Virus record (IMG/VR): IMGVR_UViG_3300043786_000089
Coordinates: 1-25,327 of that record
Reading direction: 5' to 3' (one strand)
From: a virus
DNA length: 25,327 nucleotides
The notes beneath the pieces are model-generated. The model worked only from the letters and a program-made list of their open reading frames with translations, had not been told where the DNA came from and ran no database searches. Positions 11,944-25,327 of the stretch are shown in pieces. Within the stretch, counting starts at the first letter, position 1; each line of letters starts with the position of its first letter. Made by a program: the position numbers and the translations under genes.

Positions 11944-12843
11944 TTATGGTGCCGATTGAGTGTACGTATCGATGGTAGTGAACTGAGAGCGACCAAGGGT
12001 CTGACTTCCAGTTGTACCTGTGACGTTTATTTGCAACACTTTGTACAGATTGTTATATGTTTCAGGCGCAATCTCAGAAGAGACACGAACTGTCATAGCA
12101 TTTACAAACAGTCGTTTTCCTTGTTCAGTAATATCTCTCTTAGATATATCAAGAACGTCTAAACGACGAGTAGTTCCAAATACAGTATTTGGTCCTGTGT
12201 TTAACACAGCAAACCGTAGTGGAACTTTTGTAAATAACAATTGAGATAAAATTTGACGATCATGACGTGGTTGACGAGAGTATGAAGTAATTTGGTAATC
12301 AATATTTACAGGAATTGGATAGTTAATTTCCCAGTTATGTTCATCATTATCCCAAGCAGTACTTTCGCCAATGACTGTTGGGTTAGTTAAATACGCTGGC
12401 TTTACCTTGCCTCTCATAGCACGAGAGAAATCTTCAGAGATATCGACCATATCAATAGTGATGTAAGGGTATGACTGAGCACGAATTTCCTGGTCAGGTT
12501 GTCCAAACCAGACTCCTACTTTTCTAGTAGTACCTGGTGTAGCAGTGCCACCTGAAGCAACACTTGCAATGTTTGCATTTGTTTTTGCATATTTAAATGT
12601 AGTAGGAGTTGGAATTAATGTAATGTTGTAGGTGCCATTAAAGGCAGTTGCAGTACCCGCAATAGTAACTGTGTCTCCAACTTCAAAGCCATGTTCTGTA
12701 GATGTAGTTATTGTAACTACATTATTAGTAAGCGCTCTATTTGTAATAGTTTTTGCCGTAGCAGAAGAGGCCTTCTGATCAGTAACAGTCATCTCTTTTA
12801 ACAAGTCTCTCAGCGCTTCATCTTCTTCTAAAAGGAAGGTCAT
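11944..12843 (-). CDS. Neck/tail-completion protein with inserted beta domain
   Basis: The protein has 299 aa and lies directly before the sheath. Residues 1-28 and about 105-299 form one part, with KVGVWFGQPDQEIRAQSYPY, RQPRHDRQILSQLLFTKVPL and a C-terminal beta region. This context fits a neck or sheath-terminating protein. Residues about 30-104 (KTITNRALTNNVVTITTSTE, HGFEVGDTVTIAGTATAF, NGTYNITLIPTPTTFKYAKT) look like a separate beta module of the kind repeated in many phage structural proteins, resembling the FCCH/E1-like fold. It seems inserted between the N-terminal helix and the main body. Start ATG 12843 overlaps the preceding stop as ATGA. The exact function is inferred from position only. 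Confidence 0.6.
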   Translation of the reverse strand: MTFLLEEDEALRDLLKEMTVTDQKASSATAKTITNRALTNNVVTITTSTEHGFEVGDTVTIAGTATAFNGTYNITLIPTPTTFKYAKTNANIASVASGGTATPGTTRKVGVWFGQPDQEIRAQSYPYITIDMVDISEDFSRAMRGKVKPAYLTNPTVIGESTAWDNDEHNWEINYPIPVNIDYQITSYSRQPRHDRQILSQLLFTKVPLRFAVLNTGPNTVFGTTRRLDVLDISKRDITEQGKRLFVNAMTVRVSSEIAPETYNNLYKVLQINVTGTTGSQTLGRSQFTTIDTYTQSAP

Positions 12844-13363: not shown

Positions 13364-13372
13364 AATAAATAA

Positions 13373-13379
13373 CCCCTTT
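13373..13379 (-). promoter_or_regulatory. Strong ribosome binding site for the 13363 gene
   Basis: AAAGGGG lies 9 nt before ATG 13363. This is a much stronger site than those inside the small-gene cluster upstream, in line with a newly started transcription unit after the terminator. Confidence 0.6.
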
Positions 13380-13407
13380 ATCGCAACCTGTGGGAACAGT
13401 ATTCAGG

Positions 13408-13420
13408 CACCGCAGCGGTG
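13408..13420. promoter_or_regulatory. 13-bp palindrome, possible operator or promoter element
   Basis: CACCGC, one central base, then GCGGTG form a perfect dyad. It is GC-rich in an AT-rich gap, between the terminator at 13448 and the next gene at 13363. With a 1-nt centre it cannot make a good RNA hairpin, so a DNA-binding site is more likely. TATATC lies just upstream on the minus strand as a weak -10 candidate. No convincing -35 is seen. Confidence 0.3.
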
Positions 13421-13447
13421 TTCTGATATAGCAATGATAAAGAAGAA

Positions 13448-13465
13448 AGGCCCCTTTCGGGGCCT
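13448..13465 (-). terminator. Intrinsic terminator after small-gene cluster
   Basis: On the minus strand the sequence is AGGCCCC, GAAA, GGGGCCT: a perfect 7-bp GC-rich stem with a GNRA tetraloop. It is followed by TTCTTCTTTA. It lies 26 nt after the last small gene (stop at 13491) and before the neck-tail genes. This is the clearest terminator in the window. Confidence 0.88.
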
Positions 13466-13490: not shown

Positions 13491-13610
13491 TTAGACGATT
13501 TTCTTTTTCTTTTTCTTCTTTAGCGCCTTAAAATCTGCGCCAGTAATTTTATCAGCAGGCTTTGCAGCGTTAGCAATTTTCATCTGCTTAGGGCTTAGTG
13601 ACTTCTTCAT
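13491..13610 (-). CDS. 39-aa basic phage protein (SLSPKQ...ITGADF family)
   Basis: The ORF reads MKKSLSPKQMKIANAAKPAD, then KITGADFKAL followed by a run of seven lysines and IV. Tiny proteins with SLSPKQ and DKITGADFxxL are recurrent in environmental phages, so the call does not rest on length alone. The ATG at 13610 shares its A with the TAA of the preceding 21-aa ORF (TAATG). It is the last gene before the terminator. The poly-lysine end suggests nucleic acid or membrane binding, but the function is unknown. Confidence 0.75.
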   Translation of the reverse strand: MKKSLSPKQMKIANAAKPADKITGADFKALKKKKKKKIV

Positions 13611-13675
13611 TACTTACCTTTCTGGCAAGTGGAACACTTGCACTTGCAGTTCTTCATGTCGCACTTAAGAGCCAT
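13610..13675 (-). CDS. 21-aa cysteine-rich micro-protein
   Basis: A 21-residue ORF: MALKCDMKNCKCKCSTCQKG K. It has five cysteines (5, 10, 12, 14, 17) among lysines, a metal-binding-like density. Support for it being real: its ATG overlaps the preceding TAA (TAATG at 13675) and its own TAA overlaps the next ATG (TAATG at 13610), which is how the neighbouring genes are joined. It may bind zinc or another metal. No known family is recognised. Confidence 0.6.
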   Translation of the reverse strand: MALKCDMKNCKCKCSTCQKGK

Positions 13676-13794
13676 TATTTTTTGTCCTTCTTCTTCTTAT
13701 CTGTCTTCTTCTTAGCATACTTTTTATTAGCAGCGGCTAGAGTCTTCATGCCATGCTTGTTCTTAGGCTGCATACAGCCACAGGTAGCGCACAT
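13675..13794 (-). CDS. 39-aa protein with CATCGC metal-binding-like head and Lys-rich tail
   Basis: The ORF reads MCATCGCMQPKNKHGMKTLA, then AANKKYAKKKTDKKKKDKK. The N-terminal MCATCGC is identical to that of the preceding ORF, which makes the two likely paralogues. The C-terminus is a lysine-rich tail. Both ends are set by one-base TAATG overlaps (13794 and 13675). A CxxCxC head is suited to binding metal or a redox role, but the partner is unknown. Translational coupling in the cluster is the main argument that this is a real gene. Confidence 0.7.
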   Translation of the reverse strand: MCATCGCMQPKNKHGMKTLAAANKKYAKKKTDKKKKDKK

Positions 13795-13883
13795 TACTTA
13801 CCCTTTGGCTTTGGCTTGGCTTTTGGACCCTTACCAAATCCTGGCTGACCTTTTTTCTTACCACATCCACATGTTGCACACAT
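13794..13883 (-). CDS. 29-aa protein with CATCGC head
   Basis: The ORF reads MCATCGCGKKKGQPGFGKGP, then KAKPKPKGK. The head MCATCGC is shared with the next gene. The tail is Gly/Pro/Lys-rich and disordered. Start ATG 13883 has AGGAAA about 6 nt upstream and lies 9 nt after the previous stop. Micro-proteins of the MCATCGCGKKKGQPG type seem familiar from environmental phage genomes, which I recall only as a pattern. Function is unknown; a role as a virion-borne or DNA-bound metal protein is a guess. Confidence 0.7.
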   Translation of the reverse strand: MCATCGCGKKKGQPGFGKGPKAKPKPKGK

Positions 13884-13892
13884 TGGCGTTTC

Positions 13893-14129
13893 CTATCTAT
13901 GTCGTGCCGTTTTTTTGGCAATTGATTTTGGTTGTTTTACAAACTGCTTCCCCTTGCTATTGCCTTCTGCTTTAGCACGGTTGGTAGCAGCCTTTTCTGA
14001 AGGAGTAAGAGTATCCCACGCTTTGTCTGGTAGGTAACGCTTTTTGCCTTTAGATTCTTTGCCATCTGAAGTGCGCCATTTTTCATTGCCCCACTTCTTC
14101 AGGGATTGTTGAGATTTTGCAAGAGCCAT
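13893..14129 (-). CDS. 78-aa basic phage protein (SQQSLKKWG...KAWDTLTPSEKAATNRAK)
   Basis: The protein begins MALAKSQQSLKKWGNEKWRT and has RYLPDKAWDTLTPSEKAATN, then RAKAEGNSKGKQFVKQPKSI. I chose ATG 14129: the frame is open to a TTG at 14174, but the sequence before MALAKSQQS is unlike the rest, and ATG 14129 lies one base after the previous stop (TAA G ATG). The pattern PDKAWDxLxPSEKAATN is conserved in small phage proteins. It is basic and probably binds DNA or RNA, or is packed in the virion. Function is unknown. Confidence 0.78.
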   Translation of the reverse strand: MALAKSQQSLKKWGNEKWRTSDGKESKGKKRYLPDKAWDTLTPSEKAATNRAKAEGNSKGKQFVKQPKSIAKKTARHR

Positions 14130-14130
14130 C

Positions 14131-14325
14131 TTAGTTCTTATAACCTCCGCCTGCCTTCTTATACTCAGCAGCAAGAAGTTGAGCCTTACGAGCAGACCAT
14201 TCTCCTGGATCTCCGCCTTTAGTTCCAGCCTTTATCTTTTTAAATAAACTTTTACGCATTCCAGGCTTGGTGTAATTACCAGCCTCATTTACTTTTGACT
14301 TTGGTTTTGCTGCTTTTTTTGGCAC
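14131..14325 (-). CDS. 64-aa basic phage protein (PGEWSARKAQLLAAEYKKAGGGYK)
   Basis: The protein reads MPKKAAKPKSKVNEAGNYTK, then PGMRKSLFKKIKAGTKGGDP and GEWSARKAQLLAAEYKKAGG. The start is GTG 14325: GGAGGAG lies at 14332-14338 with a 6-nt spacer. The frame could be extended to 14373, but those residues have no ribosome binding site and do not look like the family. Small phage proteins with NEAGNYTKP and PGEWSARKAQxLA are known as a recurrent family of unknown role. Its first 41 nt overlap the end of the 44-aa ORF in another frame. Confidence 0.8.
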   Translation of the reverse strand: MPKKAAKPKSKVNEAGNYTKPGMRKSLFKKIKAGTKGGDPGEWSARKAQLLAAEYKKAGGGYKN

Positions 14326-14419
14326 TCTTAACTCCTCCACTCTTTGGTACACAGTTAGGAACTCTCTTACCATTCTTTATTTTAAAACCTTTTTGAACGT
14401 AACCTTCCCAACAAGCCAC
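14285..14419 (-). CDS. 44-aa out-of-frame overlapping ORF (CWEGYVQKGFK...RVPNCVPK)
   Basis: Reading from GTG 14419 gives VACWEGYVQKGFKIKNGKRV, then PNCVPKSGGVKSAKKSSKTK and VKSK. The pattern CWEGYxxxGxKxKxGKxVPNCVPK occurs in small phage proteins, so this is a real-looking gene in a place that would otherwise be a 94-nt gap. The GTG overlaps the stop of the preceding gene as TAGTG, the same one-base joint used by its neighbours. The end overlaps the next gene (GTG 14325) by 41 nt in a different frame. TTG 14425 is another possible start. Two cysteines may form a metal or disulfide site. Confidence 0.72.
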   Translation of the reverse strand: MACWEGYVQKGFKIKNGKRVPNCVPKSGGVKSAKKSSKTKVKSK

Positions 14420-14679
14420 TAACAATCCCACTTTCTTAGTGCTAGTGCTTTACGAGTTGGCTTACCATTCTTTTCCATAGGTCCTGGCATACCACCCATC
14501 CTTGCACAGAATGATTTACGACGGGCTGCAGACTTCTTAGACTTCTTTGCTTGCTTAGCAGATACAGGTGGCTTTAATGTTCCGCCAGTTTCACGCTTGT
14601 ATGATGCACGACCTTTAGCATTTAATCCACCCTCTGGATTTTTGCCTTCTTTACGTTGCCACGCTGCTGTCTTTGCCAT
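14419..14679 (-). CDS. 86-aa basic protein (DUF6321-like)
   Basis: The sequence MAKTAAWQRKEGKNPEGGLN, then AKGRASYKRETGGTLKPPVS and RRKSFCARMGGMPGPMEKNG matches the DUF6321 pattern as I remember it (AWQRKEGKNPxGGLNAKGRxSY ... KSFCARMxGMxGP ... PTRKALALRKWxC). It is basic and has two cysteines, one at the very C-terminus. Its function is unknown; relatives are common in phages from aquatic metagenomes. The start overlaps the upstream TAA as TAATG (14679). It is full length. Confidence 0.85.
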   Translation of the reverse strand: MAKTAAWQRKEGKNPEGGLNAKGRASYKRETGGTLKPPVSAKQAKKSKKSAARRKSFCARMGGMPGPMEKNGKPTRKALALRKWDC

Positions 14680-14930
14680 TATCTTCCCTGACTTCTATGA
14701 GCATTGCTCTTGTGGAATTTCTGCACGGCCTTTACGCCTTGCTTTATGGTTCTTGATCCACCTTTTTTTGTGAGATTGATTTTATCCCACTTACCTTGAT
14801 TTGTATTAGTGTGATCAACAATAACGTCGCCCTTTTTATTTTTAAAAACTTTATGAACTACCCTGGCTTTTTTTCCAGGAATACCAGTAGTAAGAGTTAC
14901 TGGCTTTTCTTCCTTCTTCTTATCAGCCAT
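14679..14930 (-). CDS. 83-aa basic hypothetical protein
   Basis: The protein reads MADKKKEEKPVTLTTGIPGK, then KARVVHKVFKNKKGDVIVDH and ends KFHKSNAHRSQGR. It has a small beta-like middle (ARVVHKVFKNKKGDVIVDHT) and is strongly basic. Start and stop are coupled to its neighbours (TGATG at 14930 and TAATG at 14679). I do not recognise the family. Position in the run of small basic genes suggests the same, unknown, role: DNA- or RNA-binding or virion-associated. Confidence 0.7.
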   Translation of the reverse strand: MADKKKEEKPVTLTTGIPGKKARVVHKVFKNKKGDVIVDHTNTNQGKWDKINLTKKGGSRTIKQGVKAVQKFHKSNAHRSQGR

Positions 14931-15112
14931 CAGGTCACCGACTTCTTATGCTTATAACGAATTGGGGCTTTAGGTCTTCTCACTATGCCGCCCTTCTTTC
15001 GTTTTAATCTGGCACCGCCAGCCTCGTATTTACTCTCAGTAACATTTGTTTGAATATTCTTCTGTGGCTGTTTACCAGCCCTTGCTCCAATGTTCCTGCG
15101 CCGTCTAGCCAT
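14930..15112 (-). CDS. 60-aa Arg/Lys-rich hypothetical protein
   Basis: The protein reads MARRRRNIGARAGKQPQKNI, then QTNVTESKYEAGGARLKRKK and ends RYKHKKSVT. It is strongly basic, with no membrane segment and no recognisable domain. It shares one-base overlaps with both neighbours (TAATG at 15112, TGATG at 14930). Its composition would suit binding to nucleic acid, but it could also be a disordered virion protein. No family is recognised. Confidence 0.65.
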   Translation of the reverse strand: MARRRRNIGARAGKQPQKNIQTNVTESKYEAGGARLKRKKGGIVRRPKAPIRYKHKKSVT

Positions 15113-15288
15113 TACTTATTCTTTTTCTTTTTCGACATTCCCGCTTCGCTCATTGCAATAGCAACAGCCTGCTTCTTTGATTTAACAACTGGGCCTTTAC
15201 CAGGACCCTTCTTACCTGAATGCAACTTTCCTTCTTTGTACTCCTTCATAACTTTTTCAACTTTGCCTTTTGCTTTTTTAGTTGCCAT
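15112..15288 (-). CDS. 58-aa basic protein (DUF6496-like)
   Basis: The protein is MATKKAKGKVEKVMKEYKEG, then KLHSGKKGPGKGPVVKSKKQ and AVAIAMSEAGMSKKKKNK. The pattern KVMxEYKEGKLHSG...GPVVKSxKQAxAIAxSEAG is that of DUF6496, a small protein family of unknown function widespread in phages. Three consecutive ATG codons are possible (15294, 15291, 15288). I chose the third because AGAGG then stands 6 nt upstream. It overlaps the 31-aa acidic ORF, in another frame, by 11 nt. Confidence 0.87.
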   Translation of the reverse strand: MATKKAKGKVEKVMKEYKEGKLHSGKKGPGKGPVVKSKKQAVAIAMSEAGMSKKKKNK

Positions 15289-15373
15289 CATCATCCTCTT
15301 CTACTTGGTCATCTAATTCTACCGCATCAAACTCAAAGAGAGAGGGGTCTAATAACTCCTCAAAATTTCCCAA
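15278..15373 (-). CDS. 31-aa acidic ORF (possible)
   Basis: In the 81 nt between the connector gene and DUF6496, a frame from TTG 15373 reads LGNFEELLDPSLFEFDAVEL, then DDQVEEDDDGN. It is strongly acidic, opposite to the basic proteins that follow. Support: it fills the gap fully, its composition is clearly protein-like (FEELLDPSLFEFD), and it ends 11 nt inside the next gene. Against: a TTG start with no Shine-Dalgarno sequence. It may be coupled to the gene stopping at 15376. Confidence 0.5.
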   Translation of the reverse strand: MGNFEELLDPSLFEFDAVELDDQVEEDDDGN

Positions 15374-15375
15374 GG

Positions 15376-15909
15376 TTAGTTTGCGTATGCTTGGAACTGA
15401 GGATCGTTTACTAACTCCTCTGAGTTGACTAGGTTGCAGTCTATAGTTACTACTGAATAACGTTCAGCGTATCTTCCACGAGGCAAGACTCTTGTAGGTA
15501 CAAATACCTGATCTTGGAATACGACACGATCCTTGATGTGTTGATTTGGATCAGTAACCATTGCTGGAATAAGTCTATTTATATCTGCTACAGAAACAAC
15601 AAGGCGCAGAGTATCTACTACGTAAAATCCTCGTTCATTCATTATGTTTGTACCACGCATTAATTGCGCTAAAATTACGGGCAGATCAAATGGGTCATTC
15701 CATCTACGACCTTTAGTAGGATCTTGATTTGATACATCATAAACTGGATCTACATAATTTGCGTAGTCTGCAGCAAGGGCTGCATCATCCCAAGTCCACC
15801 AGTCAACAATAGTTCCAATAGGATCACGAAGTTCATCAACCATACCCTCATCCATAGAGAGGGTTTCAAACCCTATCTTAAATCGTCCTTGGACTTTTGA
15901 ACCACGCAT
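15376..15909 (-). CDS. Putative head-tail connector/structural protein
   Basis: The protein has 177 aa. It begins MRGSKVQGRFKIGFETLSMD, then DEGMVDELRDPIGTIVDWWT, and has NDPFDLPVILAQLMRGTNIM, RLVVSVADINRLIPAMVTDP and RYAERYSVVTIDCNLVNSEE. The beta-rich body and its place before the neck genes fit a head-tail connector or similar structural protein, but the specific family is not recognised. It has no membrane segment or enzyme motif. It is separated by 41 nt (with a hairpin) from the glycosyltransferase gene, and its end abuts the small-gene cluster. Confidence 0.55.
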   Translation of the reverse strand: MRGSKVQGRFKIGFETLSMDEGMVDELRDPIGTIVDWWTWDDAALAADYANYVDPVYDVSNQDPTKGRRWNDPFDLPVILAQLMRGTNIMNERGFYVVDTLRLVVSVADINRLIPAMVTDPNQHIKDRVVFQDQVFVPTRVLPRGRYAERYSVVTIDCNLVNSEELVNDPQFQAYAN

Positions 15910-19058: not shown

Positions 19059-20060
19059 ATGAATTTGGTGCATAAATCCGTATCTCAAGGGGGCAAATTA
19101 GTACCCTTAATTCTACCTCACTCAACTACCTCTGGTATGGGCTTAATGAATCCATCTATCTTTGTTGATGATGACGGTGATATCTTAGTAAATATTAGGC
19201 ACGTAAATTACACTCTCTATCATTCAGAAAAAGACCAAAGATTTTTTAGTCCTTGGGGTCCTCTCTCCTATCTACACCCTGAAAAAGACCAACGGCTAGT
19301 TACGACCAACTACCTAGGCCGTCTTGATAAGGATTACAACCTAATTAATTTTACTAAAGTTGATTACTCTAAATTTGATGTGCCACCTATTTGGGAGTTT
19401 GTTGGTGAGGAGGATGTCCGCATCACGCAGTGGGATGGCAACTACTACCTGATCGGAGTACGGCGTGATACCACGCCCAATGGGCAAGGTCGCATGGAGT
19501 ACTCCAAAATTGAATTAGATAAAACCAACTGGACAGCCACCGAAGTTCAACGAGTTCGTATTCCTCCTCCTGTTGATGTTAACTCGTATTGCGAAAAGAA
19601 TTGGATGCCGATCCTTGATATGCCATATCACTTTGTTAAGTGGGCTATGCCTACCGAAGTTGTTTGGGCTGATCCCGATAAATCTGAATGTAAGCAAGTA
19701 CTAACAAAAGAAACTCCGCCAATCTCTCCTGATCAACGTGGTGGTACAAACATAGTTGCTTGGGGAGATTATTATATTGCCTTTACTCATGAAGTTAGAC
19801 TGTGGAAAAATTATCTAAATCAAAAAGATTCAACATATAGACATCGCATGATTGTATGGGATAAAGAGTTCAACTTTGTTGGACTTACGTCGTCCTTTTC
19901 ATTCTTAGATACGCCAATTGAATTTTGCGTTGGCGCAGCAGTTATAAAGAAGAACCTAGTACTAACTTTTGGTGTACAAGATAATTGCGCTTTTGTTCTT
20001 GAGGTTTCTAAAAAGGTTGTCAACGGAATGATTACGGAGGCTATGTCTTATGGACATTAG
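19059..20060 (+). CDS. Five-bladed beta-propeller protein, glycoside hydrolase/phosphorylase-like
   Basis: The protein has 333 aa. Motifs include MNPSIFVDDDGDILVNIRHV (about 30-49), EEDVRITQWDGNYYLIGVRR (about 117-136), CEKNWMPI (about 178-185) and GGTNIVAWGDYYIAFTHE. NP...DDDG, EDxR and EKNW with repeated WDGxYYL blades are characteristic of five-bladed propellers of the GH43/GH130-like superfamily. In GH130 the D and E of such motifs shape the active site, but I cannot assign a substrate. It heads the plus-strand island with TPR, methyltransferase and GT25-like genes. No ribosome binding site precedes ATG 19059, and a -10-like TATGCT ends only 11 nt upstream, so a leaderless message is possible. 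Confidence 0.62.
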   Translation: MNLVHKSVSQGGKLVPLILPHSTTSGMGLMNPSIFVDDDGDILVNIRHVNYTLYHSEKDQRFFSPWGPLSYLHPEKDQRLVTTNYLGRLDKDYNLINFTKVDYSKFDVPPIWEFVGEEDVRITQWDGNYYLIGVRRDTTPNGQGRMEYSKIELDKTNWTATEVQRVRIPPPVDVNSYCEKNWMPILDMPYHFVKWAMPTEVVWADPDKSECKQVLTKETPPISPDQRGGTNIVAWGDYYIAFTHEVRLWKNYLNQKDSTYRHRMIVWDKEFNFVGLTSSFSFLDTPIEFCVGAAVIKKNLVLTFGVQDNCAFVLEVSKKVVNGMITEAMSYGH

Positions 20061-20613
20061 AGAGTTGACTTTAAAACTGGCTGAAAATCCAGTTGATGTT
20101 GAGAATAATTTCAATCTTGCTACTGCCTACGAAGAACAACTGCAGTACGCATCGGCTGCTGGATTTTATTTAAGGGCTGCTGAATACGGGTATAAAACAC
20201 ATCCTCTAATCACCTACACCTCTTTGTTAAAGATGGCCTTGTGTTGGGGTGCTCAAGGAGATAGAAACCGAACTGTTTACAACAATCTCATGCAAGCAAT
20301 TGCTTATCTGCCAAATAGACCAGAGGCGTATTTTTTAGTGTCTAGAATTAAAGAAAAAAACAATGAATATCAGGAGTGTTATACCTACGCTGAGATAGGG
20401 TTACTCTTTGCAACCAATACCTATAATCAGCCACTGCCAGGATATGTTGAATACAACGGTACATACTGCCTACTATTTGAGAAGGCTGTTGCTGGTTGGT
20501 GGATTGGGCGCAAAGAAGAAAGCAAAGTTCTTTTTCACCACCTATTAGATGAGCATAAGATGTCTAAAGAGTATGTTAATAGTTGTCTAAATAACTTAAA
20601 GTTGTTTAACTAA
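20050..20613 (+). CDS. Tetratricopeptide repeat protein
   Basis: The protein has 187 aa with paired helices of TPR type. One repeat is ENNFNLATAYEEQLQYASAA (about 18-37), followed by GFYLRAAEYGYKTHPLITYT. Another is NLMQAIAYLPNRPEAYFLVS (about 79-98), followed by RIKEKNNEYQECYTYAEIGL. TPR proteins often hold glycosyltransferases together or bind their acceptors. Here it lies between propeller and methyltransferase genes. The ATG (20050) overlaps the propeller gene by 11 nt, so translation is coupled. GGAGG stands upstream. Confidence 0.75.
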   Translation: MDIRELTLKLAENPVDVENNFNLATAYEEQLQYASAAGFYLRAAEYGYKTHPLITYTSLLKMALCWGAQGDRNRTVYNNLMQAIAYLPNRPEAYFLVSRIKEKNNEYQECYTYAEIGLLFATNTYNQPLPGYVEYNGTYCLLFEKAVAGWWIGRKEESKVLFHHLLDEHKMSKEYVNSCLNNLKLFN

Positions 20614-21146
20614 TGTTTCCTAATTGGTTTAAAGATGTAGAGAAGTACTTTAGACACGTACCAAGTGTTCCACTTCGTGCACTGCAGATCGGCACCTACA
20701 CAGGAGACGCCACCGAGTGGCTACTTAATAATCGAGAGATTGAATATCTAGATGATGTAGATACATGGGAGGGCAGTGAAGAGACCGCCCATAAAGATTT
20801 AGATTTTGTTTCAGTAGAGGCTTACTATGATTCAAGATTTCCAAAGGATGGAAGAATCTTAAAGCACAAGATGACCAGTGATGAGTTCTTTATTCGTAAC
20901 GCTAGTTCGTATAACTTCATATACATAGATGGCGACCACACCGCCCTACAGACCGCTATAGATGGCTTAAATGGCTTTAGGCACCTGGAATCAGGTGGGG
21001 TGATGGCATTTGATGACTACCTCTGGAATTATGGCGGAGGAGAGTACAGGGAGCCCAAGAGGGGCGTGGATTGCGTTCTTAATCTCTGTAAAGGCGAGTA
21101 CACAATGATTGAATCTGGATATCAGGTATGGATTGAGAAGTGCTAG
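20613..21146 (+). CDS. Class I SAM-dependent methyltransferase
   Basis: The protein has 177 aa. Residues 23-33 (ALQIGTYTGDA) are motif I, the SAM-binding glycine loop. YNFIYIDGDHT (about 100-110) is the post-II acidic region with the DGDH metal/substrate signature of Methyltransf_24-type enzymes, and SGGVMAFDDY (127-136) follows. Such enzymes often methylate sugars or small molecules; small-molecule, glycan and protein targets are all possible. The neighbours suggest a sugar. Stop and start with the TPR gene share one base (TAATG). It ends 7 nt inside the GT25-like gene. Confidence 0.82.
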   Translation: MFPNWFKDVEKYFRHVPSVPLRALQIGTYTGDATEWLLNNREIEYLDDVDTWEGSEETAHKDLDFVSVEAYYDSRFPKDGRILKHKMTSDEFFIRNASSYNFIYIDGDHTALQTAIDGLNGFRHLESGGVMAFDDYLWNYGGGEYREPKRGVDCVLNLCKGEYTMIESGYQVWIEKC

Positions 21147-21883
21147 ATAACGCTTGCTTTGAAGTCTTTCATACTGATACTGGAAATGAATTAAGAAACA
21201 AATCTTATGAGGGCATTTTAAATTCTATGTCTTTCTTGCCTCGTCTTGGCTCTCCTACTATGTACTTAAATACTGCTGATAAGGCTGAAGCATTTATTAA
21301 TCAAACACCAGAGTTTAAAGTAAATACAGTTACTGACTTCTGTAAGCCAGGAGAGACCTTCCCACCATCATCTGGAGTTATAGGAGTTTGGGCAAGTGCT
21401 TATTTGGCTTATAAAAAGTTTTTAGAATCTGACAAAGATGTATTAATAATTTTTGAAGATGACATAATTATCAGCAATAACTTTAAAACTATTGCTGATA
21501 TGTATATGAGTGAACTTATGCCTATATGGGATTTCTTTTCATTCTTTGTTCCAGATGATTCACTATTTGCTTATAATCAATCTGAACACGATATTGGTGA
21601 AGAACATACTTGCAAATCATATCAACAATGGTCTTGTGCAGGATACGCCGTAAGTAGACGTGGTGCAGAAAAGGCTATTGCAGATATTGAGTTTAAAGGA
21701 ATTAATTGTCCTGTAGATTGGTATATTTTTAACTTTAGAATGAAACAAGAAGAAAATCAAATAAAATTTAATACATTTACAATAAAGCCACAGATATATA
21801 GACCTATAAAGTTTTTACAAGAAGCAGCACAATACAGTCAAATTCACAACGGTAGTACAGAGTTACTTAGTAGACATCCATAA
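21140..21883 (+). CDS. Glycosyltransferase family 25-like protein
   Basis: The protein has 247 aa. [20 protein letters not shown], then [12 protein letters not shown] holds an EDD (106-108) that is typical of GT25 (LPS or collagen glucosyl-galactosyltransferase superfamily). [17 protein letters not shown] (about 164-180) and CPVDWYIF (about 190-197) match the later motifs of the family. Start is GTG 21140, 7 nt before the end of the methyltransferase gene. Its end overlaps the C-terminus of the minus-strand collagen-like fibre gene by 17 nt, tail to tail. GT25 members are known to modify collagen hydroxylysine in animals and LPS in bacteria; the link to the neighbouring collagen-like fibre is suggestive only. 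Confidence 0.78.
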
Positions 21884-23057
21884 CATCGTTTATAACTACC
21901 TCATCAGTAGCACCGCTAGTACCTTGAGTGCCCTGTGTTCCTGTACCCGTAGTTCCTTGAGTGCCCTGTACACCTTGTGTTCCTAATGTTCCTTGAACAC
22001 CCTGAGTTCCTTGGGCTCCAATTGTTCCCTGAACTCCCTGAGTTCCCTGTGTACCGTCTACACCTTGAGTACCTTGTGTACCTTGTGCACCAGTAGTTCC
22101 TTGGGTTCCCTGAATACCCTGATCACCCTTATCACCAACACGAGCAAATGTCACATATAAATTATCATTATTAGAGATTGATAGAGTTCCAGTTACATAA
22201 GCAACTGGGACGTTAAAGTATGCGCCACCGCTCTCATGTGTGTGAGTTCCTGTAACTTGAAAGAATGCAAAACTATTTGAGTCAGTAGTTTCTGTAAACT
22301 TAATAGTTGCTTTAATTCCAGAGGTTGAGTCATCAATTGTTTGTAGTAGTTGTGAAATGTCGCTTGAATTAAAATCAAGGTTGTCTATATATAGCGCAGT
22401 TGCACTAGAGATAGTTGCATTATTAAATTTTAAATTTCCATTACCTGGATCAGTATTTTCTGTATTAGTTAAGAAGTTATATTCATGAGTTTCTCCACCA
22501 AAGTTTCCTGTAGCACCCTGAGTTCCAAGTGTTCCTTGAGTGCCTTGAGTGCCTTGAGTGCCTTGAGTTCCCTGAGTTCCTTGAGATCCTAAAGTACCTT
22601 GAGTTCCATCAGTTCCCTGCGTGCCCTGAGTGCCCTGAGTGCCTTGAGTTCCTTGAGTTCCTTGAGTTCCTTGAGTTCCATCAGTTCCCTGCGTGCCCTG
22701 AGTGCCCTGAGTGCCTTGAGTTCCTTGAGAACCTAAAGTACCTTGAGTTCCCTGAGTTCCATCAGCACCTTGTGCACCAACAGTCCCTTGCAATCCTTGT
22801 ACACCCTGTACGCCTTGTACGCCTTGTACACCTTGTACACCTTGTACACCTTGAGTGCCCTGTACACCTTGTACTCCTTGAACACCTTGAATACCTTGAA
22901 GACCACCATATGCAAGAGAGTTCCAAGCAGTTGATCCGTTACCAACTTTAAATTTACCAGTATCTGTCTCTGTTCCTACTTCACCAGCAGCAAGTGTTGG
23001 GTTATTAGCAGTCCATTGTGATTCAGTACCTCTACGAAGTTTGATTGTTACTGACAT
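21867..23057 (-). CDS. Collagen-like tail fibre protein
   Basis: The protein has 396 aa. Residues 1-52 ([52 protein letters not shown]) are the N-terminal module found on many phage fibre/tropism proteins (Mtd-type). Then comes a collagen-like block of Gly-X-Y triplets (about 52-185) of the GTQ, GVQ, GTD and GTL kind, a globular module (about 186-304, containing [15 protein letters not shown] and [11 protein letters not shown]), and a second collagen block to about 380. The C-terminus is short ([14 protein letters not shown]). There is no proline in the triplets. The globular module is repeated in the next fibre protein upstream. ATG 23057 overlaps the previous stop (TAATG). Confidence 0.85.
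21918..22142 (-). repeat. Collagen-type Gly-X-Y triplet repeat (second block)
   Basis: About 25 triplets, mostly of the GTQ/GVQ kind. Nine-base periodic DNA coding for these repeats also opens false long ORFs on the other strand. Confidence 0.8.
22500..22904 (-). repeat. Collagen-type Gly-X-Y triplet repeat (first block)
   Basis: About 45 triplets such as [12 protein letters not shown] and GVQ. The DNA is a degenerate 9-base repeat of the CAAGGTACT kind, prone to slippage and length change. Confidence 0.85.
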
Positions 23058-23338
23058 TAGACTACTCCTCCACCATTATAGGAACTTGTGTATACATCAC
23101 TGCCACCTGCTTCGTCTCCTCCATCGGCTACACCTGTTACGGTGTCAGAACCATCAACTTCATCTCCACCCTCAACTATATCTGCAGAAACGTTTGTTGT
23201 AATTTCAAGCCACTCAACCCCATCAAATACATAGACATTTCTTGCTTCTGTATTGTAATAGATATCTCCAACGTACCTACCTGTAGGTTGAGTTCCTACG
23301 GCAAGTACGTTGATAGGTACGAGGGCTCTTTTACTCAC
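23057..23338 (-). CDS. Small virion protein between fibre genes
   Basis: The protein has 93 aa and a GTG start (23338), placed 3 nt after the stop of the preceding fibre gene. Its N-terminal half reads [20 protein letters not shown], then [20 protein letters not shown]. This is a beta-rich pattern seen in small fibre-associated phage proteins. The C-terminal 45 residues are acidic and Gly-rich ([20 protein letters not shown]) with no clear fold. It may link the two collagen-like fibres, but there is no direct evidence. Confidence 0.65.
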
Positions 23339-23341
23339 GTA

Positions 23342-25327
23342 TTAAGCCTTTACTACGACCCGATAAGTTTCACCTGATTGTGGAGCCACTGCAAATCCGA
23401 TAGTTACAGCAGATGTAGTTGATGCAATTACATCAGTAACTACCTCGTTATAAGTAGCATCTTGTACAGTTACTAACACATCTCGTGTTCCAAGATTGTG
23501 TGTAATTGTGAAAGTTGTTGCTGAATATGGAGATACTGGAGTAATAGTCTCTGCGTGAGTTCCAAGTTGACCAGAGGTACCTTGAGCACCCTCTGTTCCT
23601 TGGGCGCCAGTAGTTCCTTGAGCACCAGCAACACCGACAGCACCAGATAGATTTACTGTCCATGAAGCGTATGTTCCAGTACCAACTTTGCTGGTTTTAT
23701 TAAATGCAAGAGCGCCAGTTCCAGGGTTATAACTTGAAACGGTACCGTATTGAATATTACTTACATCATATGCAACAGTGATGTCTTGACCAACAGAGTA
23801 ATCAACTGCTAGATCTGTAACCGTAATTGTTTGAGAACCAGAAGTTCCTAATGTAAATGATGTTGTAGAGGTTGTGGAGTACTTATCTCCATCAAGACCA
23901 GATGTACCTTGAGAACCAACTGTTCCCTGTGCACCTACTGTGCCTTGAGTACCTTGAGCACCTTCAGTTCCTTGAGTACCATCAGTACCTTGAGAACCTA
24001 CTGTGCCTTGAGCACCAACAGTACCTTGAGCACCCACAGTTCCTTGAGTACCTTGAGCACCTTCAGTTCCTTGAGTACCATCAGTACCTTGAGAACCAAG
24101 AGTACCTTGGGTACCTACAGCACCTTGTGCACCAACAGTTCCCTGTGCACCCTCTGTTCCTTGGGCTCCATCAGTACCTTGAGTACCTAAAGTTCCTTGA
24201 ACTCCTTGAGATCCAACAGTTCCTTGAACTCCTTGTGCACCTTCAGTTCCTTGTGTACCTTGAGTACCAACAGCACCTTGGGCTCCATCAGTTCCCTGTG
24301 TTCCTTGTGCACCTACAGTACCTTGTAAACCTTGAGTACCAACTGCTCCTTGAGCACCAACAGTTCCTTGAACTCCTTGAGAACCAACAGTTCCTTGAAC
24401 TCCTTGTGCACCTTCAGTTCCCTGTGCTCCTGTAGGACCTAAGTTAGATACTGTTATAGAGCCAGCCATTGATGAGTGGAACTGACATACATAATAAAGT
24501 TGAGGAGCATCAAATGGAACTTCAAAAATAATAGTCCCAACTGCTGCGCCGTTATTTGTTACACCAGTGTTGTAAATATTTCCTGAACTGTACGCTCCTG
24601 AAACTGTTTGAATCCAGAACGGGTGACCAGACGCATTAACATTAATAACATATCTATGACCACGAATAAAAGACAGAGTTGGATTATTAGATCCATTTAT
24701 TGCGTAAGCAGAAAACCCAGAGTTAGTAACTTCAAGAGTTATGCCTCCAGAGACACCAACTGTTCCTTGTGCACCCTGTGCACCTACAGTACCTTGAGAA
24801 CCCGTTGCACCAGCATCACCAGTACGTGCAAAGGTTAACAGAACTGGATCAGAGTTTGATAAAGAACCAGCACCAGATAAGTATGTAATATCTAAATCAA
24901 AGAAGCCTGTGTCATCAACCATTGAGTTAATTGCATACATTGCAAACACTGCAGCGTTAGATTTCTTTGAAATTTTTACGTGACCCTTAATTGTTGATGT
25001 AGAGTCATCAATAGTTGCTAAATATGAAGCAATGTTTGTTGCATTTACATCTTCATCATCAATTACAAGATGAGTTGCACTTGCTAAGGCTGCGTTAAAC
25101 CTTACATTTGAAGAACCTGGGTCTGACATTGTGGTTGATGTACTGTATGCGTATTCAACAGTTACGCCACCAAATGAACCTTCAGCACCTTGTGTTCCAA
25201 GAGTACCTTGAGTACCTTGAGTACCATCAGTACCTTGAACTCCTTGAGCACCTAAAGTACCCTGCGTACCTTGAGAACCAACAGTTCCTTGTGAACCTTC
25301 AGTTCCTTGAGAACCTACAGTTCCTTG
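23342..25327 (-). CDS. Collagen-like tail fibre protein with cupredoxin-like domain, 5' end cut by window edge
   Basis: The frame is open through the window edge; the Met at 25129 is internal (66 more in-frame residues lie upstream). The order of modules over 661 visible residues is: collagen-like triplets; a globular module (about 25174-24815, TIDDSTSTIKGHVKI and LLTFARTGDAG) paralogous to that of the next fibre gene; a beta-domain (about 24440-24745) with GHPFWIQT and LYYVCQFHSSMAGSITV, like a cupredoxin; a long collagen block; a beta-domain (STTSFTLGTSGSQTITVTDL); a short collagen block; and a C-terminal beta-sandwich (TFTITHNLGTRDVLVTVQDA). It should be a trimeric fibre. The start is outside the window. 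Confidence 0.85.
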   Translation of the reverse strand, partial: QGTVGSQGTEGSQGTVGSQGTQGTLGAQGVQGTDGTQGTQGTLGTQGAEGSFGGVTVEYAYSTSTTMSDPGSSNVRFNAALASATHLVIDDEDVNATNIASYLATIDDSTSTIKGHVKISKKSNAAVFAMYAINSMVDDTGFFDLDITYLSGAGSLSNSDPVLLTFARTGDAGATGSQGTVGAQGAQGTVGVSGGITLEVTNSGFSAYAINGSNNPTLSFIRGHRYVINVNASGHPFWIQTVSGAYSSGNIYNTGVTNNGAAVGTIIFEVPFDAPQLYYVCQFHSSMAGSITVSNLGPTGAQGTEGAQGVQGTVGSQGVQGTVGAQGAVGTQGLQGTVGAQGTQGTDGAQGAVGTQGTQGTEGAQGVQGTVGSQGVQGTLGTQGTDGAQGTEGAQGTVGAQGAVGTQGTLGSQGTDGTQGTEGAQGTQGTVGAQGTVGAQGTVGSQGTDGTQGTEGAQGTQGTVGAQGTVGSQGTSGLDGDKYSTTSTTSFTLGTSGSQTITVTDLAVDYSVGQDITVAYDVSNIQYGTVSSYNPGTGALAFNKTSKVGTGTYASWTVNLSGAVGVAGAQGTTGAQGTEGAQGTSGQLGTHAETITPVSPYSATTFTITHNLGTRDVLVTVQDATYNEVVTDVIASTTSAVTIGFAVAPQSGETYRVVVKA
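23890..24436 (-). repeat. Collagen-type Gly-X-Y triplet repeat
   Basis: Long block of GTQ, GAQ, GTV, GSQ, GTE and GTD triplets without proline, in the right-edge fibre gene. The DNA repeats with a 9-base period and several 40-90 base segments recur almost unchanged (for example around 23950-24000 and 24045-24100). Confidence 0.82.
24440..24745 (-). other. Cupredoxin-like domain in fibre protein
   Basis: This domain has about 100 residues. With the internal Met at 25129 as residue 1, His169 is in SGHPFWIQT and Cys215, His218 and Met221 are in YYVCQFHSSMAG. Cys-x2-His-x2-Met resembles the blue-copper loop, which in plastocyanin is Cys-x2-His-x4-Met. The loop is two residues shorter, so copper binding is possible but not shown. 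Confidence 0.6.
25177..25327 (-). repeat. Collagen-type Gly-X-Y triplets at right edge
   Basis: About 16 triplets of GTV, GSQ, GTE, GTQ, GTL and GVQ type, continuing beyond the window. They show that the fibre gene has a collagen block before its first globular module. Confidence 0.8.

Follow-up and report, generated by a model that had tools for sequence, protein, structure and literature searches.

Here, we propose that a block of twelve very small genes in a linear 25.3-kb virus fragment from IMG/VR (record IMGVR_UViG_3300043786_000089, 25,327 nucleotides, from a lake-type phage; hereafter the window) encodes small basic proteins that are made late, associate with the virion in its head, neck and packaging compartment, and probably bind nucleic acid. 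Judged from sequence and genome comparison, we give this reading about an even chance of being right. The block, which we call the cassette, lies on the minus strand and runs from 15373 down to 13491, with open reading frames (ORFs) of 31, 58/60, 60, 83, 86, 44, 64, 78, 29, 39, 21 and 39 amino acids (aa). The original prediction, made from the letters of this DNA, described the small genes as basic, and this applies to eleven of them, each with a net charge of +5 to +19 and an isoelectric point (pI) of 9.2-12.0, adding up to a net charge of +146. It does not apply to the first ORF (ac31, 15278..15373), which is acidic, having a net charge of -13, a pI of 4.1 and 13 Asp/Glu residues without any Lys or Arg.

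In the mechanism that we envisage, the genes of the block would be translated together, late and alongside the structural genes, and their products would be small accessory virion proteins, drawn from an exchangeable set, that end up inside or on the surface of the head/neck compartment. There the basic modules, which are partly folded, may contact packaged DNA or, instead, acidic capsid or neck surfaces. Peptides starting with MCxxCGC would contribute a head able to bind metal or thiols, while the acidic ac31 peptide may hold the basic set soluble until assembly. One-base stop/start overlaps between the genes would allow modules to be gained, lost or swapped without new promoters or long leaders.

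Head, neck and packaging genes as neighbours

A virion or packaging role is favoured by the major head protein, scaffold, terminase, portal or neck genes that neighbour the cassette families in other, unrelated phages, and by the cyanophage protein T4-GC119. In unrelated phages, ng64 (14131..14325; phrog_17747, E=1.8e-35) has major head protein families (PHROGs 1357, 334, 544 and 617) upstream and terminase, tail and head-closure families downstream, and its companion yl78 (13893..14129; phrog_14910, E=5e-37) abuts terL in phage MEP402. Genes related to d6321 (14419..14679; 86 aa), the DUF6321 member of the cassette, are found between scaffold and capsid in HTVC022P, near capsid genes in DSL-LC07, and as a DUF6321 protein between gp16 and gp17 in P-RSM4. 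A row of tiny basic genes is also present in the SAR11 phage HTVC033P and includes ng64, yl78 and DUF6321. According to a published study of HTVC022P (PMC12753301), temporal classes are contiguous on its genome, so that the scaffold-capsid position of the DUF6321 gene implies late expression. The original prediction had left a choice between a virion- or packaging-related set and an early-infection set; the capsid, scaffold, terminase and neck neighbours together with GC119 favour the former, and the late-gene context weakens the latter.

The link to the virion itself comes from Synechococcus phage S-SM1, for which Sullivan et al. (PMC3037559) report 41 proteins detected in purified virions. 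In the GenBank record of P-RSM4, the note 'similar to Synechococcus phage S-SM1 protein' is attached to GC402, gp13, gp14, gp15, GC403, GC119 and gp18, as well as to gp19, gp20, gp21, gp23, gp3, GC399 and GC400. No such note stands on gp16, gp17, gp22 or any of the replication genes examined, and S-SM1 possesses orthologues of many P-RSM4 genes that lack the note. We infer that the note marks proteins detected by mass spectrometry. Taken in this way, it makes GC119, which in S-SM1 ends in DUF6321, a probable virion protein.

Several points weigh against a place in the virion. These small proteins themselves have no direct virion detection, and the S-SM1 evidence is drawn from notes in the annotation and relates to a fusion of 495 aa. 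Bacterial homologues of the ng64/yl78 pair in the DUF5872 family are chromosomal and have mixed neighbours, none of them consistent. Foldseek and VIA searches with two AlphaFold2 models, one of DUF6321 (small and helical; pLDDT 87.5, pTM 0.67; the other four models 65-74) and one of a DUF5872-like fusion (mostly helical; pLDDT 85.2, pTM 0.51), found no DNA-binding fold, the fusion having no Foldseek match and a VIA Z of 2.9 at best. Finally, late-gene context fits non-virion assembly factors or late host-directed proteins too.

The first of these alternatives, assembly or packaging helpers that aid the scaffold, the terminase or the neck and then stay in the cell, draws on the very same neighbourhoods, namely the place beside terL in MEP402, the scaffold-capsid gap in HTVC022P and the gp16-gp17 gap in the cyanophage. 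We consider such helpers credible but unlikely, as GC119 is apparently a detected virion protein and the cassettes vary in content to a degree that would be unusual for essential assembly factors.

A modular and exchangeable gene set

This variation was followed in 80 related loci carrying homologues (70-100% identity) of con177, the gene immediately upstream of the cassette (15376-15909). In 59 of them the cassette could be tiled between con177 and the downstream genes m68/n106, giving 594 ORFs; single-linkage clustering of these merges Lys-rich families and served for counts only, not for family claims. Cassette members differ in presence and order among close relatives, with DUF6496 in 72 of the 80 loci, DUF6321 in 43, ng64 in 28 and yl78 in 27 (some contigs being cut). 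Single genes also move between unrelated phages, as in a locus (L005) that shares with the window only 14414-14687, that is, the DUF6321 gene and a few bases at 84.7% DNA identity, and is otherwise unrelated to it. A fixed, strictly inherited unit is thus ruled out, and the idea that the genes are selected as a unit fails in its strict sense because members are swapped: the small-gene set is modular and exchangeable.

Within this changing set, ng64 and yl78 form a near-obligate pair. In 71 of 73 distinct ng64 contigs yl78 lies within 2 kb of ng64, usually 2 nt downstream, and it adjoins ng64 in 69 of 70 contigs. DUF6321 is present in 34 of the 73 and con177 in only 8, and no module families were found at 2.5-8 kb from ng64 in any of them. 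The 50,697 GenBank phages include 17 records with ng64 and 19 with yl78, and 16 records carry both (hypergeometric p ~2e-58, a value inflated by related isolates). The families therefore do co-occur across phages; a failure to do so would have counted against the original prediction.

The modules also occur interchangeably on their own or as beads of a fused protein. The basic 83-aa protein g83 (14679..14930) and DUF6321, neighbours in the window, are joined in one relative (L293) as a single 209-aa protein. The 44-aa protein cw44 (14285..14419) is characterised by the motif CWxGYxxxGxKxKxGKxVPNCVP, which also lies inside PHROGs 9737, 4359, 28131, 10346 and 727, and it is fused to DUF6321 in L070, L075 and L086; in PHROGs, DUF6321 is the C-terminal domain of long proteins. 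The L075 protein, at 640 aa, has cw44, two cyanophage modules, cw44 again and DUF6321 in series, and the cyanophage T4-GC119 proteins have the same bead-like build as the L075 and L070 fusions, with DUF6321 at the end.

Other ORFs are found in or beside some cassettes. One cassette (L260) contains a 157-aa HNH-like, Cys-rich ORF, whose putative homing-type endonuclease activity could aid module exchange. In L329, L336, L341, L343, L346 and L347, an extra fibre-like ORF of about 150-500 aa sits exactly between con177 and ac31, and that of L329 is collagen-like.

The exchange of single genes between unrelated phages and the turnover in composition, along with the HNH-like ORF and the chromosomal ng64-yl78 homologues of bacteria, would suit a swappable 'moron' island within the structural operon, encoding late host-directed proteins with nucleoid, RNA or defence targets. 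We find this quite unlikely in view of the constant place of the families beside head and packaging genes across unrelated phages, and of DUF6321 being built into a probable virion protein. An early-infection set, whether made early or brought in and active from the start, is very improbable: small basic phage proteins are often early, but the genes here are co-directional and closely spaced with structural genes, and the HTVC022P gene points to late expression. Late, virion-associated proteins thus remain the reading that we prefer.

Coding evidence, families and flanking elements

All 12 ORFs are real coding genes under purifying selection. A codon comparison gave ratios of nonsynonymous to synonymous substitution rates (dN/dS) of 0.05-0.35 for each tiny gene, within the range of the tail sheath and tube genes or somewhat above it. 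The ratio is 0.17-0.24 for ac31; 0.07-0.09 for d6496 (15112..15294; 58-60 aa, with three tandem ATGs); 0.06 for r60 (14930..15112; an Arg/Lys-rich 60-aa protein of pI 12 found in 63 of the 80 loci); 0.11-0.20 for g83; 0.09-0.16 for c29 (13794..13883; Lys-rich, 29 aa); 0.10-0.15 for k39 (13491..13610; Lys-rich, 39 aa); and 0.25-0.35, from few sites, for c21 (13610..13675; 21 aa with 5 Cys, conserved in 51 of the 80 loci). The acidic ac31, whose TTG start lies 2 nt past the stop of the upstream gene, is present in 57 of 58 cassettes, and across relatives its start stays in place although the codon itself may be TTG, GTG or ATG. The ORFs are genuine because of these ratios and of the start-codon swaps at a fixed place, and the expected translation of the small genes is borne out by selection. 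That they are spurious Lys-rich ORFs opposite a T-rich strand, as their shortness and low-complexity tails might suggest, can be dismissed on the dN/dS values (decisive for at least 10 of the 12, c21 offering few sites), the ac31 start-codon swaps and the homologues in unrelated phages and bacteria.

The twelve ORFs, their sizes and their mostly one-base joints are as originally described. Seven of the 11 joints are one-base overlaps (TAATG, TGATG or TAGTG, at 15112, 14930, 14679, 14419, 13794, 13675 and 13610), and the others are an overlap of 11 or 17 nt, a 41-nt overlap with a GGAGGAG ribosome site serving the GTG start of ng64, a 1-nt gap and a 9-nt gap. The same one-base (-1) overlap is found at 293 of the 536 joints in the 59 homologous cassettes.

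The DUF6321-like and DUF6496-like assignments were confirmed, both matches exceeding the Pfam gathering score: d6321 scores 91.4 bits against PF19846 (cut-off 28.5; profile positions 1-72 of 72) and d6496 43.6 bits against PF20106 (cut-off 24). DUF6321 is carried by 476 GenBank phage records, and the small-gene families are abundant in aquatic phages, with at least 600 matches in several IMG/VR scans. Database entries for these families all read hypothetical or 'unknown function'. Our literature search found no paper mentioning DUF6321 or DUF6496, and the available portions of papers on HMO-2011-type phages and pelagiphages do not discuss the small genes. Among solved structures, the DUF6321 and DUF5872-like profiles have no PDB sequence match. 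The best row in the DUF6321 fold comparison, mimivirus sulfhydryl oxidase R596 (Foldseek E 9.2; VIA Z 3.2 over 56 residues, root-mean-square deviation 3.8), is insignificant and was not used.

The cassette ends, as had been predicted, at a terminator hairpin (GGCCCC-GAAA-GGGGCC, 13448..13465), which was located by a terminator scan and which in relatives has changed stem letters and preserved pairing. Beyond it follow m68, n106, t299, tail sheath and tail tube genes, the identified sheath and tube agreeing with the neck-tail genes foreseen there. The label 'connector-like' for con177 lacks support, in that this gene has no PHROG match and no PDB sequence match beyond a meaningless one.

Between the terminator and m68 lies a conserved RNA-like element of two hairpins (13364-13428, minus strand). 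When 15 distinct versions are compared, standard pairs fill 182 of 210 pair cells, and most positions show at least two standard pair types; stem variants include CACCG/CGGTG, GACCG/CGGTC and AACCG/CGGTT in one set and CTGT/ACAG, CAGT/ACTG and GTAGT/ACTAC in another. This covariation was approached in 0 of 2000 shuffles, which ignore relatedness, and no slid register comes near; the alignment was adjusted by hand since MAFFT misplaced gaps. At least 64 of the 67 distinct instances of the pattern stand before an m68-type start, and the remaining ones are cut off or have a variant start context. The CCC of the second loop could pair with GGGG at the m68 ribosome site, making pseudoknot-type translational control of m68 possible. 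Rfam gave no match for the element, only sub-threshold chance matches.

Elsewhere in the window, t299 (11944-12843, minus strand), before the tail sheath gene, has an insert near its N-terminus (residues 29-99) that matches the virion structural PHROG 5838. A four-gene inverted island (19059-21883, plus strand) lies between fibre-like genes inside the minus-strand structural region; by eye, at least one of its genes is glycosyltransferase-like, and several relatives have a block of comparable sizes, likewise inverted, on the upstream side of con177. The region 21867-25327 (minus strand) encodes two long proteins that are collagen-like (GTQGTQ/GAQGTQ) and probably form head or tail fibres.

Comparison with known systems

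The ng64/yl78 pair has a counterpart outside phages in DUF5872 (PF19197), a family of bacteria and algal giant viruses whose N-terminal half corresponds to ng64 and whose C-terminal half corresponds to yl78; a DUF5872 protein is listed for the algal virus CpV-BQ1 (PMC12085832). DUF5872 proteins are fused, and in 61 of 62 bacterial ng64 homologues, from chromosomes of Sphingomonas, Roseomonas, Myxococcus, Hymenobacter, Chlamydiia and others, the yl78 domain is in the same chain, whereas in the window the pair is split into two coupled ORFs with a 1-nt gap. Neither ng64 nor yl78 alone matches the DUF5872 profile (cut-off 27.5), to which a fused protein (L361) scores 17.3 bits and a bacterial one (L388) 29.2 bits; the pair is therefore homologous to DUF5872 through intermediates and is not a scored member. 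Some ng64-homologous bacterial proteins match DUF5872 and bear Rho_N/SAP-like repeats, and in Alphaproteobacteria the chromosomal DUF5872 proteins, such as those at L370, L388 and L404, frequently have such repeats at the C-terminus (GRSxMxKxxLxxAL), hinting at nucleic-acid contact. The window pair lacks the Rho_N tail. The split and fused forms offer a functional lead for the bacterial DUF5872 family.

The Cys peptides c29 and c39 (13675..13794; Lys-rich, 39 aa) both begin with MCATCGC. An MCxxCGC start is found in 91 cassette ORFs (one or two such ORFs in each of 57 of the 59 cassettes) and resembles the high-affinity Ni site formed by the N-terminal CXXCGC of HypB, where in Escherichia coli Cys2, Cys5, Cys7 and the N-terminal amine are the Ni(II) ligands (PMC7055735). 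The phage peptides differ from HypB in having 29-39 aa, a Lys-rich tail and no GTPase domain. As c39 scores 19.3 bits against NCBIfam HypB_prefix_1, below the cut-off of 30, this is a likeness of motif and not family membership.

Among phages, close parallels are HTVC033P gp36-gp42 and MEP402 gp48-gp51 (HMO-2011-type or related marine phages), where the same families, namely ng64, yl78 and DUF6321, form consecutive tiny basic genes, with one-base joints also in the HTVC033P row. These cassettes differ from ours in belonging to another phage lineage, in having other fillers and no annotated con177, and in that no CATCGC genes were seen among the coding sequences examined. The T4-GC119 family (P-RSM4_120, S-SM1_115; PHROGs 727/10346/3477) likewise has a C-terminal DUF6321, has the cw44 motif in some members, and sits among neck and terminase genes, being apparently a virion protein in S-SM1. 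Its members, however, are long bead-like chains of 365-495 aa that contain further modules, whereas the modules of the window are separate tiny genes.

Families so far called hypothetical come together as a single exchangeable system that is linked to head and packaging genes. More speculatively, and with low probability in our estimation, aquatic tailed phages might share a mix-and-match nucleoprotein kit, a chromatin-like analogue packaged with the genome. It is just as doubtful that the kit would combine folded and unstructured basic modules with a thiol- or metal-binding peptide and an acidic partner, the genes being either separate, swappable and coupled by one base or fused into bead proteins, and an equally tentative extension is that bacteria and algal giant viruses would draw on it too. 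If packaged, the small proteins would alter the view of tailed-phage DNA as essentially bare of small basic proteins. T4-type internal head proteins and protamine-like viral proteins are likewise small, basic, late and possibly packaged, and the likeness of the cassette proteins to them is one of general features, not of sequence.

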